Below, piece by piece: positions 20,810 to 28,256 of a stretch of DNA of 35,501 bases. The position numbers and the translations under genes were made by a program. The notes below the pieces were generated by a model, which worked only from the letters and a program-made list of their open reading frames with translations, did no database searches and was not told the DNA's origin. Within the stretch, counting starts at the first letter, position 1, and each line of letters begins with the position of its first letter. The stretch is from a virus, in IMG/VR virus record IMGVR_UViG_3300036823_000154, positions 1 to 35,501 of that record. The stretch is one strand, 5' to 3'.

Positions 20810-21366
20810 TGGTACTGTGCGATATGTGGTTCGCCTGCGAGTGAGGCGTCGGGAGGGGTTATATAGCTAATCGTAGTGCCTGAGAACGTGTAGTCAATAC
20901 CCTGAATCTGCGGCTGACGCGCGAGCGAGATCTGGATTGAGTTCGGATCGAACGGCTCAATGCCGCCGTCGAGGGTGAATGTGGTATTCGTGCCGTCTAT
21001 GTCCCCGTCCACATTTACGAGGCGCCACGGCTTCTGAAGATTGGAGCCGATGTCCGTAATCATCTTCGCGGTGATGCCGAGGATGAGCGTGTAGGTCTTT
21101 CCGGCGGTGTTCTTCGTCGAAGCGGCGGTTCCTTCTTGCGCGCGGACTACGGTGAGCGTGTTGCCGGAAACGGCGGTGATCCGGACGAGCTCTGCGTTCG
21201 GATCGTCAGAGGGGTCCGGATAGTCGGTTGAGTTCCACCACGTGACGTTGAAGGACGGCGAAGGAAGAGAGGAGCCGCCGGACGTGAGAACTATCGTCGT
21301 ATCGGTCTCGCCGTAGCCGGTGCTCACAGTGAGCTTAATGAAATTCTGTACGCTGTCTAATGTCAT
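20806..21366 (-). CDS. Fibre-base structural protein (186 aa)
   Basis: N-terminal beta domain with TDTTIVLTSGGSSLP, a WWNSTDYPDP loop, VRITAVSGNTLTVVRAQEGT (about 60-80) and NTAGKTYTLI. These form a motif set seen in phage virion proteins that precede fibres. The second half (about 110-186) has a short hairpin domain with FTLDGGIEPFDPNSI. It sits between the HNH gene and the large spike, overlapping the former (stop 21363) and the latter (start 20809). It probably links the spike to the particle. Confidence 0.6.
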   Translation of the reverse strand: MTLDSVQNFIKLTVSTGYGETDTTIVLTSGGSSLPSPSFNVTWWNSTDYPDPSDDPNAELVRITAVSGNTLTVVRAQEGTAASTKNTAGKTYTLILGITAKMITDIGSNLQKPWRLVNVDGDIDGTNTTFTLDGGIEPFDPNSIQISLARQPQIQGIDYTFSGTTISYITPPDASLAGEPHIAQYQ

Positions 21367-22016
21367 ACGAGGGCGAGTAGTGGTCGCACCTGTTCGATCA
21401 GGGCGTTCTCTTCTGATCTTTTCTTACCGTGACAGGAATCGCAGAGCGTAATAAGGTTCAGCGGCGAATTGTCGTGGGAAATACGATACGCAATGATGTG
21501 GTGGACATGGAGCGGATGACCGCATCTGTCCTTGTGTTGCCACTCAGCCATGTCGCATTCGGCACACATGAAACCATCACGGGCACGGATGCGAAGCTTG
21601 AGCGCATCCCATTCTTTGCCGCGCCACCAGATTTTGCCACCAAGCCAATTGTGATGGAGTTTGCCTGTTCTACCTCGCATCCAATTGCGCTCCAGCTTCG
21701 CTGCGCTGATCTTTGCGCGGGATTCTGGTCGCTTGGAGGGATTGAGCGCGCCGGCAACCTTTGGGTTGGGAACACCTCGTCGCCACTGTTGTCTCTCTAA
21801 CACTTCACGCGCGGCGCTCACTACCTTCATCGGGTCGATGAGCTTGTTTTCGTAGCCATACTTGAGAGCTTCGGAACCGTTACAAAAACATCTGCGCTTT
21901 GCGCGCGTCGTACTGCGAAGAAGATCCGCACCGCAATAAGCGCACGCAACATGAACTCTCTTGAGTTTCACTATTCGACCGCGCCATGGATAGTTGAGTC
22001 TTGTTACCTGTTCCAT
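21363..22016 (-). CDS. HNH homing endonuclease with extra zinc finger (217 aa)
   Basis: An N-terminal finger (CAYCGADL and CFCNG, residues about 26-49) is followed by a basic linker with a NUMOD3-like helix (SKRPESRAKISAAK) and an HNH core: CAECDMAE (about 154-161), LHVHHIIAYR (about 173-182) and LCDSCHGKKR (about 196-205). It is inserted between portal and fibre-base genes; its stop overlaps the next ATG. It is a free-standing homing enzyme likely to spread the gene between related phages. It differs from the HNH type at 10480 and at 25963, so insertions were independent. Confidence 0.87.
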   Translation of the reverse strand: MEQVTRLNYPWRGRIVKLKRVHVACAYCGADLLRSTTRAKRRCFCNGSEALKYGYENKLIDPMKVVSAAREVLERQQWRRGVPNPKVAGALNPSKRPESRAKISAAKLERNWMRGRTGKLHHNWLGGKIWWRGKEWDALKLRIRARDGFMCAECDMAEWQHKDRCGHPLHVHHIIAYRISHDNSPLNLITLCDSCHGKKRSEENALIEQVRPLLALV

Positions 22017-22025
22017 TTCGTGTTG

Positions 22026-24389
22026 TTAAATCTGTATATCTTGAGGACGGAGATAGCATGAACACAGCGGATGTAATGGCGGTGAACTCACATCACCATA
22101 GTCGAGGGACATCGTCTTCGCGTCGTCTCCTTCACCAACGGTGAGGCTTGACCCGTTCTCAAAGAAGTTGTCGTCGATACCGATCGTCTTCCCGTCCATC
22201 GCCTGACAAAAGCCGCACACGTTCGAAAGCTCGCTCGTATACCAGCGGACGGTCTTCACGACGCCGGACTGCTTCCACGCGGTCTTCAAGGCATCGTTCG
22301 CCGTCCGGAAGGATTCGGTCTTCGCGACCATCGCCGCGCGCTTCTCGTCGCTCCATTCGTAGATTTCCTCGACCGTCTTCGTGATGTCCGAAAGCGACGC
22401 GCCGGACTGGAGGCCGTCGTTGATCTTCGTCTCAAGCACTTCAAGCGTCGTCTGCTGGTAGCTCTCGGCCATCCGCTGGACAGAGGCCTTCACGGTCGCT
22501 CGCGTCGTGTCGTTGAAAGGGTTCAGCTCCGGCTTGCCGATCTCCGCCGCCGCGCTCCGGGCCTGATGTTCGAAGAGCGTCTCCATGATCGGCGTCACGG
22601 CGTTCGTCGTGATAGAGATCCAATTGTCGATATTGAAAAGCTTTGAGGGGTCAATGCCCTTCTGAATGGCGGCGGGAAGATTGGCGAGCACTTCCTTCTT
22701 CTGCTCATCGTTGATCTTGCGGACCGTCTCCGTGATCTCTTTTTCCGCTGCTTGCGTATACTCGCTGAACTCTTTCCAACGCGTCTCATCCTGCTCCTTC
22801 GTCGAGACAAACTGCTTCGTGGGATTAGCGAGCCTCTTCTTCAGTTCCTCGGTGATCTTCTCGGTGAGCGACTCCGTCATCGCGACGCGGGCCTTTGCAC
22901 GTGCGGCGAGCTTGGTCCGTATCGGCCGGAAGGCCACCCTTGCGCCGTTCGCGGCCTTTTGGACCTTCGCCTCGATAGCCTTGCGAAGCGCCTTGTCCGG
23001 ATGTCCGCCCGCGGCTTCGGGCGTCACATCGCCATCACCCACAGGCTCGCCTGACGGTTGCATGGTCGTCGGGCTCATAAGCACATCGCCGCCTTCGACC
23101 GGCCCAAGCCCCATGAACTCGTCACGGGCTTCGTTGATCGTGAGGATCGGCTGGCTGGCTACCACCGCCTGCATCTCAACCGTCCGCGCGCCGCGATCCT
23201 CCGGCACAGGATCGATGAAGCTGATGTACAGGTCATCCCCGTAACGCGGCACGAGCTTCTCGTTCAGGAAATCGCAGATGCGCTGCATATGCGGCTTCAC
23301 GACGCGCTTCGAAAAGACGTAGTCCGCTGTCTCCGCGGTACTGCGATTAGTATCTGATTCGGCGGTTCCGAGTATCGTCTTCGACACTCCGAAAAGCGCA
23401 AGGATGCGATCCCTCATGTCCTCGGAGAGGTTCTTGAAGTCCATGTCCTTCGGATTCGTGCCGGCGGGCGTCCACTTCACACCCTTCGGGAGCACGCCGA
23501 TGCGCTGCATGTTGTCGATGCCGCCGTGAACGTCCATGAAACCGATCTTCAGGGACTCAACCTGCGTTTCGGAGACCATGTCGGTCTCAAGGAAGCCTGC
23601 CGGCCGGGCGCCATTGATGAAGAACTTGCGGTTGAACTCCATCGCATAGTTATCATTGTCGATATACTCCGCGCCCGCCTGCACGATGCCGCGGCCCTCA
23701 AAGAAGTTCATCGGGTCCGGCGAGCGGAAGTGGATGATGCAACCCGGATCGAAGATGATGTTCCTCGATTCGAGCTTCATCTTGTAGCCGGTGATGCGGA
23801 ACGGGAAATGGTCCCGGTCGATGACCGGATGAATCTTCGACGGGTCGAGGAGATAGATCGCCTCGGGCTTCGTGAGGTCATCCTTCACCGGCTTGCCGCT
23901 CTTGTCGGTGAGGAGCCAGTAACAATTGCCGACGAGGTCGAGGTGAGACGACGTGAGGTACTTCAGTTCCGACCCGATCATGTCCGGGTTCACGCTATCC
24001 AAAAGGTCGAGCAGATCGTGCTGGGTCTTCTCCTTGTGGTCTTCGCCCTTCACTTCGAACAAGCGGAAGTCGATGTTCTGGACTTCGCGGGCTTTCGCGT
24101 TCACCGCCGCATAGACATATCCGCGGTTGTTCGCGAGTGCTTTCTCCGCATCGATGTGATGTCCGCCGCCCGGACGCTCAATGGCGAACTGGTTGCCGCT
24201 CGTGTCGATGTCGCCGAACGTACCGCCTGCGGACTTCGTCAAGCCGTAACGCGAGAAGGTGAGACCGCCCTGCGGCTGCTCGTAGAGCTCCGGGTCGATA
24301 CGGGTGATGAGCTTTCGAAGCTGGCGAGCGGGCCAGCTCGGAGCTTTTGAAGTGAGGGAACGAGGTTGTTTGGGAGTGGCTTGCGCCAT
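22026..24389 (-). CDS. Portal protein fused to MuF-like head domain (787 aa)
   Basis: Residues about 60-420 are the portal: NRGYVYAAVNAKAREVQ, a STLHLDLVGNCYWLL-like helix, IHFRSPDPMNFFEG and DRILALFGVSKTILG, the latter typical of HK97-type portals. From about 470 a helical linker leads to a C-terminal MuF/Mu-gpF domain (about 690-787): AKTESFRTANDALK, TSELSNVCGFCQAMDGK and PPLHPLCSCYL. MuF domains ride with the portal and are often next to it; here they are one chain. The portal forms the DNA entry dodecamer. The start ATG at 24389 has no SD site. Confidence 0.93.
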   Translation of the reverse strand: MAQATPKQPRSLTSKAPSWPARQLRKLITRIDPELYEQPQGGLTFSRYGLTKSAGGTFGDIDTSGNQFAIERPGGGHHIDAEKALANNRGYVYAAVNAKAREVQNIDFRLFEVKGEDHKEKTQHDLLDLLDSVNPDMIGSELKYLTSSHLDLVGNCYWLLTDKSGKPVKDDLTKPEAIYLLDPSKIHPVIDRDHFPFRITGYKMKLESRNIIFDPGCIIHFRSPDPMNFFEGRGIVQAGAEYIDNDNYAMEFNRKFFINGARPAGFLETDMVSETQVESLKIGFMDVHGGIDNMQRIGVLPKGVKWTPAGTNPKDMDFKNLSEDMRDRILALFGVSKTILGTAESDTNRSTAETADYVFSKRVVKPHMQRICDFLNEKLVPRYGDDLYISFIDPVPEDRGARTVEMQAVVASQPILTINEARDEFMGLGPVEGGDVLMSPTTMQPSGEPVGDGDVTPEAAGGHPDKALRKAIEAKVQKAANGARVAFRPIRTKLAARAKARVAMTESLTEKITEELKKRLANPTKQFVSTKEQDETRWKEFSEYTQAAEKEITETVRKINDEQKKEVLANLPAAIQKGIDPSKLFNIDNWISITTNAVTPIMETLFEHQARSAAAEIGKPELNPFNDTTRATVKASVQRMAESYQQTTLEVLETKINDGLQSGASLSDITKTVEEIYEWSDEKRAAMVAKTESFRTANDALKTAWKQSGVVKTVRWYTSELSNVCGFCQAMDGKTIGIDDNFFENGSSLTVGEGDDAKTMSLDYGDVSSPPLHPLCSCYLRPQDIQI

Positions 24390-25838: not shown

Positions 25839-28256
25839 TCACGTCTCGATCCAGTGAATCTTCGGCAGCTCCAACCCCTGATTGACAAGCCCCTGCAAGA
25901 GATAAACCAAGCCGTCGCAGTTGTGAACGAGGATGCCGTTCGCAAAGAATTCGTGTGCGCCTTCAACGAGAAGATTGTAGACGGGCCTTGCGGACGAATC
26001 CTTGCGGATGGTCGCGGTGCCACTTTCGGCCTGCTCCGCTCTTGTGCCACGCTGCTGCTGCCGGGATGACATTGAGAAGCATATTTCGCCGGGATTCTCG
26101 AATCTGTTGTGGCGTGCGCGTGCGCATGTGATCGGAGATGTGCTTTGCCCCGTCTTTGGGGGCGAGATTAGAGATGCGGTTGTTGAGGGGATTTCCATCT
26201 TTGTGATGGACGTGAGTAGAGCGGTCGATCGGACCAAAGTTGTCGATCCAAAGTTGGCGGTGAAGGGAGACGGGAGATTTGTGATTGCCGTCATGCCGCC
26301 AGTAGTAAACGCGATGAGCGCGCTGTTCAGCTTCAGATTTGCGGCGGTAGACTTTGCCATCGTAAAGAATGGCAGGAGGCGGGTTCGCCCAATCCACCGA
26401 TTCATAATGGACAGCATCGCCTTTCCAGCGCCAATGATTCTCGCCAGAGGAAGCGGCGGAAAACCGCGCCCGCATTTCGGGACTCCATTTGTGTCCCTTG
26501 AATCGCTGACCGAGATTGCGAATCGAAACCTTGCCTGCACATTCGCGGGAACAAAACCTTCCGGTGCGCTCGCAAGCGTAGTATCGAAACTCTTTGCCGC
26601 ATACTTTGCACTTCCCGCTTTTATTTCCGAGATGTAGTCCTCCTTTCTGTTCCATACATAAATCATGTCGGATTCACGCATATTTGCAAGAGGGATAACT
26701 CCGCGCGGCGTAATCACTGGATGATCTGGCGTCCCAGTCAATCCGAAGCGAGTTATAACGGGCTGTATTCCAGTCATTCCTGCCCATAGGACGCGTTTAT
26801 AGCCCTTACGGGTCATTACCCGATCTCCGGGGCGAACGTCGCGTATAGGCACGTTTCCGCGCTCTGTCAGCACTTCTGTATCGCCATCTAGGCACATGTC
26901 ATCGTGCGACTCGACGCCGAGATTGAACATCTGCCCCAGCAGTTCCTCGCATCCGGCGCGCGGGAATAGCACCGTGCCGTTCTTGATGTACGGCGCCACC
27001 ACTTGAAGCCTCGCGCGCTTGTCGCCTTGCGGCTTCATCGGGATCACGGGTAAGAGCGCGCGCTCCATCTCCTGTATCGCGGCCTTCTGGTACGCCACGT
27101 CCTCCACGAAGAACAGGTTCGCGCCGCCGAGCTCGCCCGGCATACTCCGGACCTTCTGCAGGAAGCTGTGGAACGTGACGTGCTGGTTGTACGGTTTCGG
27201 CCGGATATAGATCTTCGGCGCGTGATCGACGTAGAACACTTCCCCGCTCGCGATCGCCGTGAAATCCGCGCCTTCTTTTTGGCTGATCGCAAGGTCTATC
27301 CCGTGGCCCTTGATCGCCGCGATGCCTTTCGGGAACTCGTCGTAGTAGTGGATGTCCTCGGGCTTGATGATCGCTTCGTCGTCAGAGACGATCTTCAGGA
27401 GCATCTCCCGCTGCCACGGTATGGCTCCCATGTCTCGCTCTTTGTCCTTCAGACTTTGCTCCGTGGGGTACATCGCGGGCCACGTGCAAATGCCGTCCTT
27501 GTCGATCAGCGGAAATTCGAGAACAGTGAAGCCCGTGCCCGGCGCTCTGAGACGTGAGAGGAGCGCGTCCATGTGCAAGAGGTTCCCGATGACGACAAGC
27601 TTCCCCTTCCGGGCGTCCAAGCCCGGCATGATCTCGCTGTGGAGCCACCGATCGGTCTTGTCGCGGTTCTCCTTCGTGCGGACCCATTCGCCGTCCTCCG
27701 GGTCGTCCACGACGATGAGCTTCGGTCGGTACTGGAGGTGGCGCAGTCCGCGGACCTTCTGCCCGCGCGACCGGGCCAAGATCCTTACGCCGTTCGAAAG
27801 GACGATGTTCTGCTTCTGCCACTCCTCGCCTTCGCCCTGAAGAGTGAAGTCCTCGATGACATTGCCTTTGATCTCGCCGTAGTCCTGCTTGATGAGGGAG
27901 TTCGTTTCGAGCTCGTGCTTGATCGCGGAGATGTTCAAAGTCGCCTGACGGGACGAGTCGGCGATGAGGATGATGAAGGGGTATTTCTCCGGGTATTCGA
28001 GCGCGGCCCACAAGGGAAGCGCCAAAGAGCCGAAGGTGCTCTTACCGGAGCCGCGGAAGCCGAGGATGAGGACCCGGCGCTCAGCCTCGTCCTCAAGGGC
28101 GTGGACAAGCTGTGCGTGGAACGTGGCCGGTGGGTCGGTGAAGTAGCCCGTGAGGTAGATCAGCGAAAAGCCGAGGAGCGTCTTTCGGCTCTCCTTGCGG
28201 CCTTCGAAGTTGTCGAAGGCGAGGCTAAGGCTGAGTCGTGGTGGTTCGGGCGGCAT
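25839..28256 (-). CDS. Terminase large subunit with intein (805 aa precursor)
   Basis: ATPase domain: Walker A GFRGSGKST (residues 66-74), Walker B LIVVDDPEDGE (about 180-190). Nuclease domain: HGIDLAIS (Asp321), FFVEDVAYQ (Glu385/Asp386) and HDDM (452-454). The chain is interrupted after Met454 by a 325-residue intein (455-779) and resumes at Cys780 as CDGLVYLLQGL. Removal would give a 480-residue terminase whose last nuclease motif reads HDDMCDGL. It pumps DNA into the procapsid and cuts concatemers. It overlaps the end of TerS. An AAAGGAGG lies directly against the ATG, too close for a normal SD site. Confidence 0.95.
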   Translation of the reverse strand: MPPEPPRLSLSLAFDNFEGRKESRKTLLGFSLIYLTGYFTDPPATFHAQLVHALEDEAERRVLILGFRGSGKSTFGSLALPLWAALEYPEKYPFIILIADSSRQATLNISAIKHELETNSLIKQDYGEIKGNVIEDFTLQGEGEEWQKQNIVLSNGVRILARSRGQKVRGLRHLQYRPKLIVVDDPEDGEWVRTKENRDKTDRWLHSEIMPGLDARKGKLVVIGNLLHMDALLSRLRAPGTGFTVLEFPLIDKDGICTWPAMYPTEQSLKDKERDMGAIPWQREMLLKIVSDDEAIIKPEDIHYYDEFPKGIAAIKGHGIDLAISQKEGADFTAIASGEVFYVDHAPKIYIRPKPYNQHVTFHSFLQKVRSMPGELGGANLFFVEDVAYQKAAIQEMERALLPVIPMKPQGDKRARLQVVAPYIKNGTVLFPRAGCEELLGQMFNLGVESHDDMCLDGDTEVLTERGNVPIRDVRPGDRVMTRKGYKRVLWAGMTGIQPVITRFGLTGTPDHPVITPRGVIPLANMRESDMIYVWNRKEDYISEIKAGSAKYAAKSFDTTLASAPEGFVPANVQARFRFAISVSDSRDTNGVPKCGRGFPPLPLARIIGAGKAMLSIMNRWIGRTRLLPFFTMAKSTAANLKLNSALIAFTTGGMTAITNLPSPFTANFGSTTLVRSTALLTSITKMEIPSTTASLISPPKTGQSTSPITCARARHNRFENPGEICFSMSSRQQQRGTRAEQAESGTATIRKDSSARPVYNLLVEGAHEFFANGILVHNCDGLVYLLQGLVNQGLELPKIHWIET
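25920..26894 (-). mobile_element. Intein in the terminase nuclease motif (325 aa)
   Basis: Block A starts at Cys455 (CLDGDTEVLT). Block B is TGTPDHPVIT (about residues 513-522) with its His. Block F/G is VYNLLVEGAHEFFANGILVHN ending in His-Asn before Cys780, all the residues needed for class 1 splicing. Between the N- and C-terminal splicing parts, the intein frame is the out-of-frame reading of an HNH gene (25963-26655) and is not itself a recognisable endonuclease. The insertion site is at the conserved Asp-Asp of the terminase nuclease, a typical intein niche. The splicing parts look intact. Confidence 0.88.
25963..26655 (-). CDS. HNH endonuclease nested out of frame inside the intein (230 aa)
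   Basis: This gene lies on the same strand as TerL but in another frame, entirely within the intein. It has a zinc finger at the N-terminus (CKVCGKEF at about 16-23, then CSRECAGK), then NHWRWKG, and a clear HNH_3-type core: HVHHKDGNPLNNRISNL (about 147-163) followed by KHISDHM, and a typical AAAAWHKSGAGRKWHRDHP end. Thus both frames stay open for about 690 bases. The ATG at 26655 is used; an AAAGGAGG lies at 26639-26646 just inside it with no start codon behind it. It would home the intein as a separate protein instead of a fused domain. Confidence 0.82.
   Translation of the reverse strand: MEQKGGLHLGNKSGKCKVCGKEFRYYACERTGRFCSRECAGKVSIRNLGQRFKGHKWSPEMRARFSAASSGENHWRWKGDAVHYESVDWANPPPAILYDGKVYRRKSEAEQRAHRVYYWRHDGNHKSPVSLHRQLWIDNFGPIDRSTHVHHKDGNPLNNRISNLAPKDGAKHISDHMRTRTPQQIRESRRNMLLNVIPAAAAWHKSGAGRKWHRDHPQGFVRKARLQSSR

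Follow-up and report, generated by a model that had tools for sequence, protein, structure and literature searches.

Textbook mobile inteins carry their endonuclease in frame. The window analyzed here, the whole 35,501-nt stretch of viral DNA in IMG/VR record IMGVR_UViG_3300036823_000154, has a large terminase (TerL) gene that stays open through an intein, and the middle of that intein encodes a complete HNH endonuclease in another frame of the same strand. This raises the question of what the second gene is, how it would be made, and why the frame above it remains open. We read the locus, with high confidence, as a mobile terminase intein with its homing endonuclease encoded by a separate, overlapping gene that is started internally. 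The coordinates of its features are collected in Table 1.

Table 1. Terminase gene, intein and nested HNH gene in the window (positions of the 35,501-nt stretch)
Feature	Positions	Strand	Basis
TerL precursor ORF (N-extein, intein and C-extein), 805 aa	25839..28256	-	ORF list; phrog_38, E 6e-66
TerL N-extein, 454 aa, C-terminal SHDDM	26895..28256	-	Comparison with intein-less relatives L007-L052
Intein, 325 aa, CLDGDT...LVHN, followed by Cys+1	25920..26894	-	Hint_2, Intein_splicing, TIGR01443; Hint fold (gp41-1, 6qaz)
Intein N-terminal splicing domain (Cys1, block B TPDH)	26656..26894	-	Alignments; pLDDT 95-98
Intein-frame linker under the HNH, residues ~83-300, predicted largely disordered	25995..26648	-	Mostly pLDDT 33-60
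Intein C-terminal splicing domain, blocks F and G, ...HEFFANGILVHN	25920..25994	-	TIGR01443, E 1.6e-6; pLDDT 97
Nested HNH endonuclease gene, 230 aa, -1 frame relative to the intein	25963..26655	-	HNH_3; phrog_15471 HNH endonuclease, E 2.5e-13; I-HmuI (1u3e) nearest
HNH start codon ATG, formed by intein codons GTA TGG (Val-Trp)	26653..26655	-	
HNH protein N-terminal zinc finger, CxxC...CxxxC	26536..26613	-	Sequence
HNH_3 catalytic core	26161..26265	-	Pfam/hmm match
HNH stop TGA, within intein block F codons GTT GAA (Val-Glu)	25963..25965	-	
TerL C-extein, 26 aa, N-terminal CDGLVY	25842..25919	-	Comparison with intein-less relatives

The HNH ORF is complete and occupies nucleotides 240-932 of the 975-nt intein, in the -1 frame. 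Its product matches HNH_3 (Pfam 37.5 bits, cut-off 24.8; E 1.9e-9), together with a weak, below cut-off match to NUMOD3 (E 0.006). Hint_2 and Intein_splicing matches in the TerL ORF flank the HNH region, TIGR01443 is also matched, and the two intein halves form one continuous ORF, unlike those of fractured split inteins. Within the stretch covered by the HNH, stops are absent from the intein frame and number six in the third frame. The starting observations of the earlier note, a complete HNH_3 gene with a zinc finger and natural ends (ATG...TGA) in an alternate frame and a TerL frame open throughout the intein, are thereby borne out. At the window's insertion site, TerL is uninterrupted in intein-less relatives. 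Elsewhere in the window, a second, unrelated HNH protein (PF01844, E 3.6e-6, 217 aa) is encoded at 21363-22016 (-), directly downstream of the portal gene, and a single 787-aa ORF at 22026-24389 (-) fuses portal and Mu-F-like head morphogenesis domains.

The splicing residues of the window intein (C1, TPDH, HN and C+1) are all present. A Hint fold search with the intein halves returned 19 PDB matches at E <= 0.001, nearly all inteins and the remainder Hedgehog Hint domains. The best of them was gp41-1 (6qaz, E 7e-6), which, unlike the window intein, is a split intein without a nested gene. By these motifs and folds, the TerL insert is an intein of the Hint superfamily; protein splicing itself is inferred. 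For the HNH protein, the nearest solved relative is I-HmuI (1u3e), the SPO1 HNH homing endonuclease, both by profile (E 5e-4) and, weakly, by predicted fold (best E 0.03, probability 0.99); unlike the window HNH, I-HmuI is encoded within a group I intron. Residues H150, H151, N159, N163, H172 and H176 (catalytic His/Asn/His of HNH_3) are conserved in the HNH alignment.

Two surveys extended the comparison beyond the window. For the first, a profile that covered the splicing halves and ignored the intein middle was run against IMG/VR and bacterial and archaeal genome contigs; the second was seeded from the HNH side. Together they yielded 140 non-identical intact inteins with this HNH family, and the HNH is offset by -1 in all 140 (in-frame 0, +1 0). 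The intein frame contains no stop across the HNH in any of them, and the third frame contains a mean of 14.2. Neither survey found an in-frame HNH of this family in an intact intein (0/140); because the detection profiles were trained on this family, they could overlook HNH domains of other families fused in frame. The set is diverse, with 29-70% GC and an HNH of at least 110 aa in 124 of the 140 loci, which form 113 clusters at 70% identity and 83 at 50%. It includes 14 bacterial or archaeal genome-contig loci and four INPHARED phage records, three of them from named phages. The splicing residues are retained almost without exception (Cys1 in 139/139, TxxH in 137/140, terminal Asn with C/S at +1 in 140/140), and the HNH stop falls most commonly within the block F residues Tyr-Asp, Tyr-Asn or Val-Glu.

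As far as reading frames can tell, at least 140 phages and prophages of diverse kinds share the double-coded design, and the nested arrangement is not unique to the window phage. The earlier note had asked for homologous inteins to be collected and had named a stop-filled overlapping frame, or an in-frame HNH, as what would refute a separate overlapping gene. No example of the former occurs among the 140, nor of the latter in the intact inteins surveyed; the HNH frame is intact with the intein frame open in every one, and its proposal that splicing and homing (both inferred) are the work of different proteins survives. Independent assemblies, along with the isolates Tetrasphaera phage TJE1, Highwayman and LS06, all show the identical offset, which rules out two compensating indels as its cause. 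As separate observations, L270 has two successive intein-like units (215 and 247 aa) with no HNH recognized, and the TerL genes of L111, L116 and L140 each have two Intein_splicing matches, one of the two in L140 also having a LAGLIDADG_3 match in the TerL frame.

The openness of the intein frame was evaluated with a chance model in which the HNH protein is fixed and back-translated with the phage's own codon usage. For the window, this resampling predicts 2.3 intein-frame stops and leaves the frame open in 7.4% of trials, compared with 0.005% for the other overlapping frame; an order-1 Markov sequence stays open over 231 codons in 0.6%. Within-gene codon shuffling of the window alone (P0 = 1.0 on the HMM-matched part) is uninformative because its codon set is already purged, and genome codon usage was substituted for it. 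Taken by itself, the window's open overlap is no more than mildly unlikely (P ~0.07). The earlier note's "very unlikely by chance" overstates the case for a single locus, since -1 is the permissive relation: free-standing relatives average ~6 stops in the -1-equivalent frame versus 18 in the other frame. This stop poverty alone could fix the offset, and common descent may add to it.

It is the comparative set that decides the matter. The equivalent frame of free-standing relatives (n=14) has a mean of 6.0 stops (1-12), where shuffling predicts 6.08, whereas in the nested genes tested (n=77) synonymous shuffling predicts 1.94 stops per gene and none is observed. Fractured loci (n=6), which have the halves in separate ORFs and the HNH between them, contain 6-12 stops in the frame that nested loci keep open. 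In L151, the halves lie in different ORFs, yet the HNH-matched part is without a stop in that frame. Chance is excluded because all 140 homologues have no stop and free-standing genes have 1-12, and the controls imply that the frame is held open only where translation has to pass through it.

Selection on the two frames was assessed from few close pairs (five nested). Compared with L005, the nested relative closest to it, the window has 99 differing sites in the HNH, and 77 of these are HNH third positions. Read in intein codons, the differences lie mostly at position 3 ahead of the HNH start, shift to position 2 within the HNH, and return to position 3 past its stop. HNH third positions are intein second positions, so each such change alters the linker. 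The HNH is identical at 211/231 positions, stop included. The linker matches at 147/230, which does not exceed the 148/230 of the third frame, where nothing is under constraint, and freedom from stops is thus essentially the only demand on the linker sequence. As inferred from these substitutions, the HNH frame is under purifying selection at the amino-acid level, and the linker frame shows essentially only stop avoidance. The constraint on both frames that the earlier note had inferred is upheld for the HNH and, for the intein frame, reduces to this avoidance. The predicted model, with ordered splicing halves and a low-pLDDT linker, agrees with this picture.

The HNH start is near-constant, just past block B, and is ATG in 63/75. 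A Shine-Dalgarno-like site precedes it in 31% of cases versus 15% in the background, a modest enrichment. None is present at the window's HNH start, and most of the 20 minus-strand starts checked in the window phage also lack one, which suggests that its host may use non-Shine-Dalgarno initiation. Programmed -1 ribosomal frameshifting off the intein N-half, which would give an N-extein-IntN-HNH fusion, could account for an offset that is always -1, the usual direction of such frameshifting, and in-phase X XXY YYZ motifs occur in 11/140 relevant windows versus 27/787 background windows. The slippery motif is nevertheless missing in 129/140, the start codon keeps a constant place, and the -1 preference is accounted for by stop density. 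Moreover, the distance from the nearest upstream -1-frame stop to the HNH start has a median of 12 nt, so that a shift could hardly be accommodated. With such scant motif support and so little room, frameshifting was rejected, and we consider it improbable. Internal initiation remains the best reading of how the HNH is produced, its expression being inferred.

With internal initiation, the proposed mechanism would run as follows. Translation in the TerL frame would give the precursor, whose Hint halves would fold together across the long, mostly unstructured linker, and the intein would splice itself out to leave active TerL. Ribosomes starting at the internal -1-frame ATG on the same mRNA would produce the free 230-aa HNH endonuclease, which would cut intein-less terL alleles, and repair would copy the intein in. 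Splicing would hide the insert and cutting would spread it, two proteins sharing ~690 common bases. There are no expression, splicing or cleavage data, and splicing, internal initiation of the HNH, empty-site cleavage and homing are all inferred. The nested HNH probably spreads the intein; the support is indirect only, from patchy distribution and scattered HNH loss.

The intein is present in 3/48 TerL relatives compared, the window counted, and the intein-bearing exteins are not one another's nearest. The L005 extein is 95.0% identical to that of intein-less L042 and 92.3% to that of the window, the L006 extein is nearest to intein-less L040 (90.9%), and intein-less relatives of the window reach 92% extein identity. 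Insertion sites within TerL genes differ among members. On the intein tree, mini-inteins occur at scattered positions (25 changes versus 25.4 with shuffled labels), and HNH fragments persist in some of them, a pattern that repeated loss would produce. Distances between inteins correlate with those between HNHs (Mantel r 0.35, 0/999 permutations), and nested, free and split labels cluster on the HNH tree (11 changes versus 20.4 shuffled). A single origin is not claimed because the trees are poorly resolved and support on the HNH tree is too low.

The HNH could instead be a retained TerL-associated packaging or cos-cleavage factor with no part in homing, the overlap merely saving space. Free-standing family members adjoin terL in CL2, PAE1, SN1, PhiSTP1, EauM-23 and BP10, and PMC12613952 cites Kala 2014 for HNH proteins being widespread in phage packaging. 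The HNH is nonetheless dispensable, because close relatives lack both intein and HNH. The scattered mini-inteins with HNH remnants and the differing sites of the element within TerL genes also count against a packaging role, which retains only a slim chance of being correct.

A group I intron that carries the HNH gene, with the TerL frame open merely by coincidence, is an alternative that is very hard to credit. Group I introns commonly harbor HNH endonucleases, yet no Rfam intron model reached gathering score in the window or in seven nested loci, and intron identity was rejected on this ground; conserved splicing motifs flank the HNH, and the intein frame is open in 140/140. Chance or decay, meaning an in-frame HNH displaced by two indels or a fortuitous ORF, deserves next to no weight even though the window overlap alone is open in 7% of resamplings, as the offset and an intact HNH recur over 83 clusters at 50% identity, the differences are biased to HNH third positions, no in-frame version was found in the surveyed intact inteins, and recurrence in 140 homologues rejects an in-frame fusion broken by paired indels.

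The separate overlapping endonuclease gene can be set beside known systems. Canonical full inteins, such as PI-SceI, carry the homing endonuclease domain in frame. The nested inteins resemble them in having a Hint splicing domain, an endonuclease between blocks B and F, inferred mobility and mini-intein derivatives, and differ in that the endonuclease is a separate protein from another frame and not part of the intein polypeptide. Fractured genes, reportedly described by Dassa et al. in 2009 (NAR 37:2560), are said to have split inteins whose halves are separated by a free-standing endonuclease gene. There too, endonuclease and splicing reside in separate proteins, whereas the window intein is continuous, splices in cis (inferred) and overlaps the endonuclease gene. 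The fractured layout with the same HNH family occurs in Lactobacillus phage CL2 (L060), L204, L206, L213, L218 and L232.

Several isolate phages merit separate mention. Free-standing or split-locus HNH relatives adjoin terminase genes in L054, L060, L064, L065 and L066. In Lactobacillus phage CL2 (KR905067), the annotated "large subunit terminase" at 506-2774 ends in an intein N-half, and the HNH gene, then the C-half and C-extein, lie downstream as an unrecognized split intein. Vibrio phage 1.245.O (L062, 1-3389) has a TerL annotated with an intein C-terminal motif and a separate "hedgehog/hint" ORF, with a weak TJE1 HNH match between the two, possibly another fractured intein. In Exiguobacterium phage vB_EauM-23 (L058, 1071-3255), TerL stops at the usual insertion site and is followed by an HNH gene and then the TerL continuation, with no Rfam intron at gathering score.

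The closest published precedent is the ShiLan methylase, which contains an out-of-frame HNH without splicing domains (PMC11855218). Like the window HNH, that of ShiLan has zinc fingers, occupies the -1 (third) frame relative to a host gene that stays open (rechecked here as offset 2, equal to -1), is patchily distributed and has no obvious ribosome-binding site. The window HNH differs in that an intact intein half lies on either side of it, within the large terminase; ShiLan revealed no splicing domains, and its insert is thought to stay within a dispensable enzyme. The two HNHs are only distantly similar (~20 bits per segment to the nested-HNH profile). No report of an out-of-frame endonuclease inside an intein was found in the PMC-licensed literature searched, a scope that leaves out a 2025 bioRxiv preprint. 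That preprint (10.1101/2025.01.02.630785), from the ShiLan group and on non-canonical intein architecture, is cited for overlapping frames in actinobacteriophages in PMC11855218; it may partly anticipate the nested-HNH finding.

A broader proposal, which we regard as evenly balanced between right and wrong, is that the out-of-frame layout is the standard, ancient design of phage terminase HNH inteins, kept across widely diverged phages. The endonuclease would borrow its start and stop from conserved splicing-motif codons, and -1 would be favored as the only stop-poor frame. A broken frame would then give split (fractured) inteins, and HNH loss would give mini-inteins.

Nested HNH inteins would constitute a large, overlooked class in which splicing and homing are separated over the same bases. 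Annotation pipelines miss these endonucleases because the HNH overlaps TerL, which is the sole annotated feature beneath the HNH match in the TJE1, Highwayman and LS06 records. With two proteins on the same bases, each base change is judged twice, for protein function in one frame and only for the absence of a stop in the other, and the family offers more than 100 natural replicates for testing the persistence of overlapping genes. These loci also suggest how full, mini and split inteins, which are in wide use as protein tools, might convert into one another.
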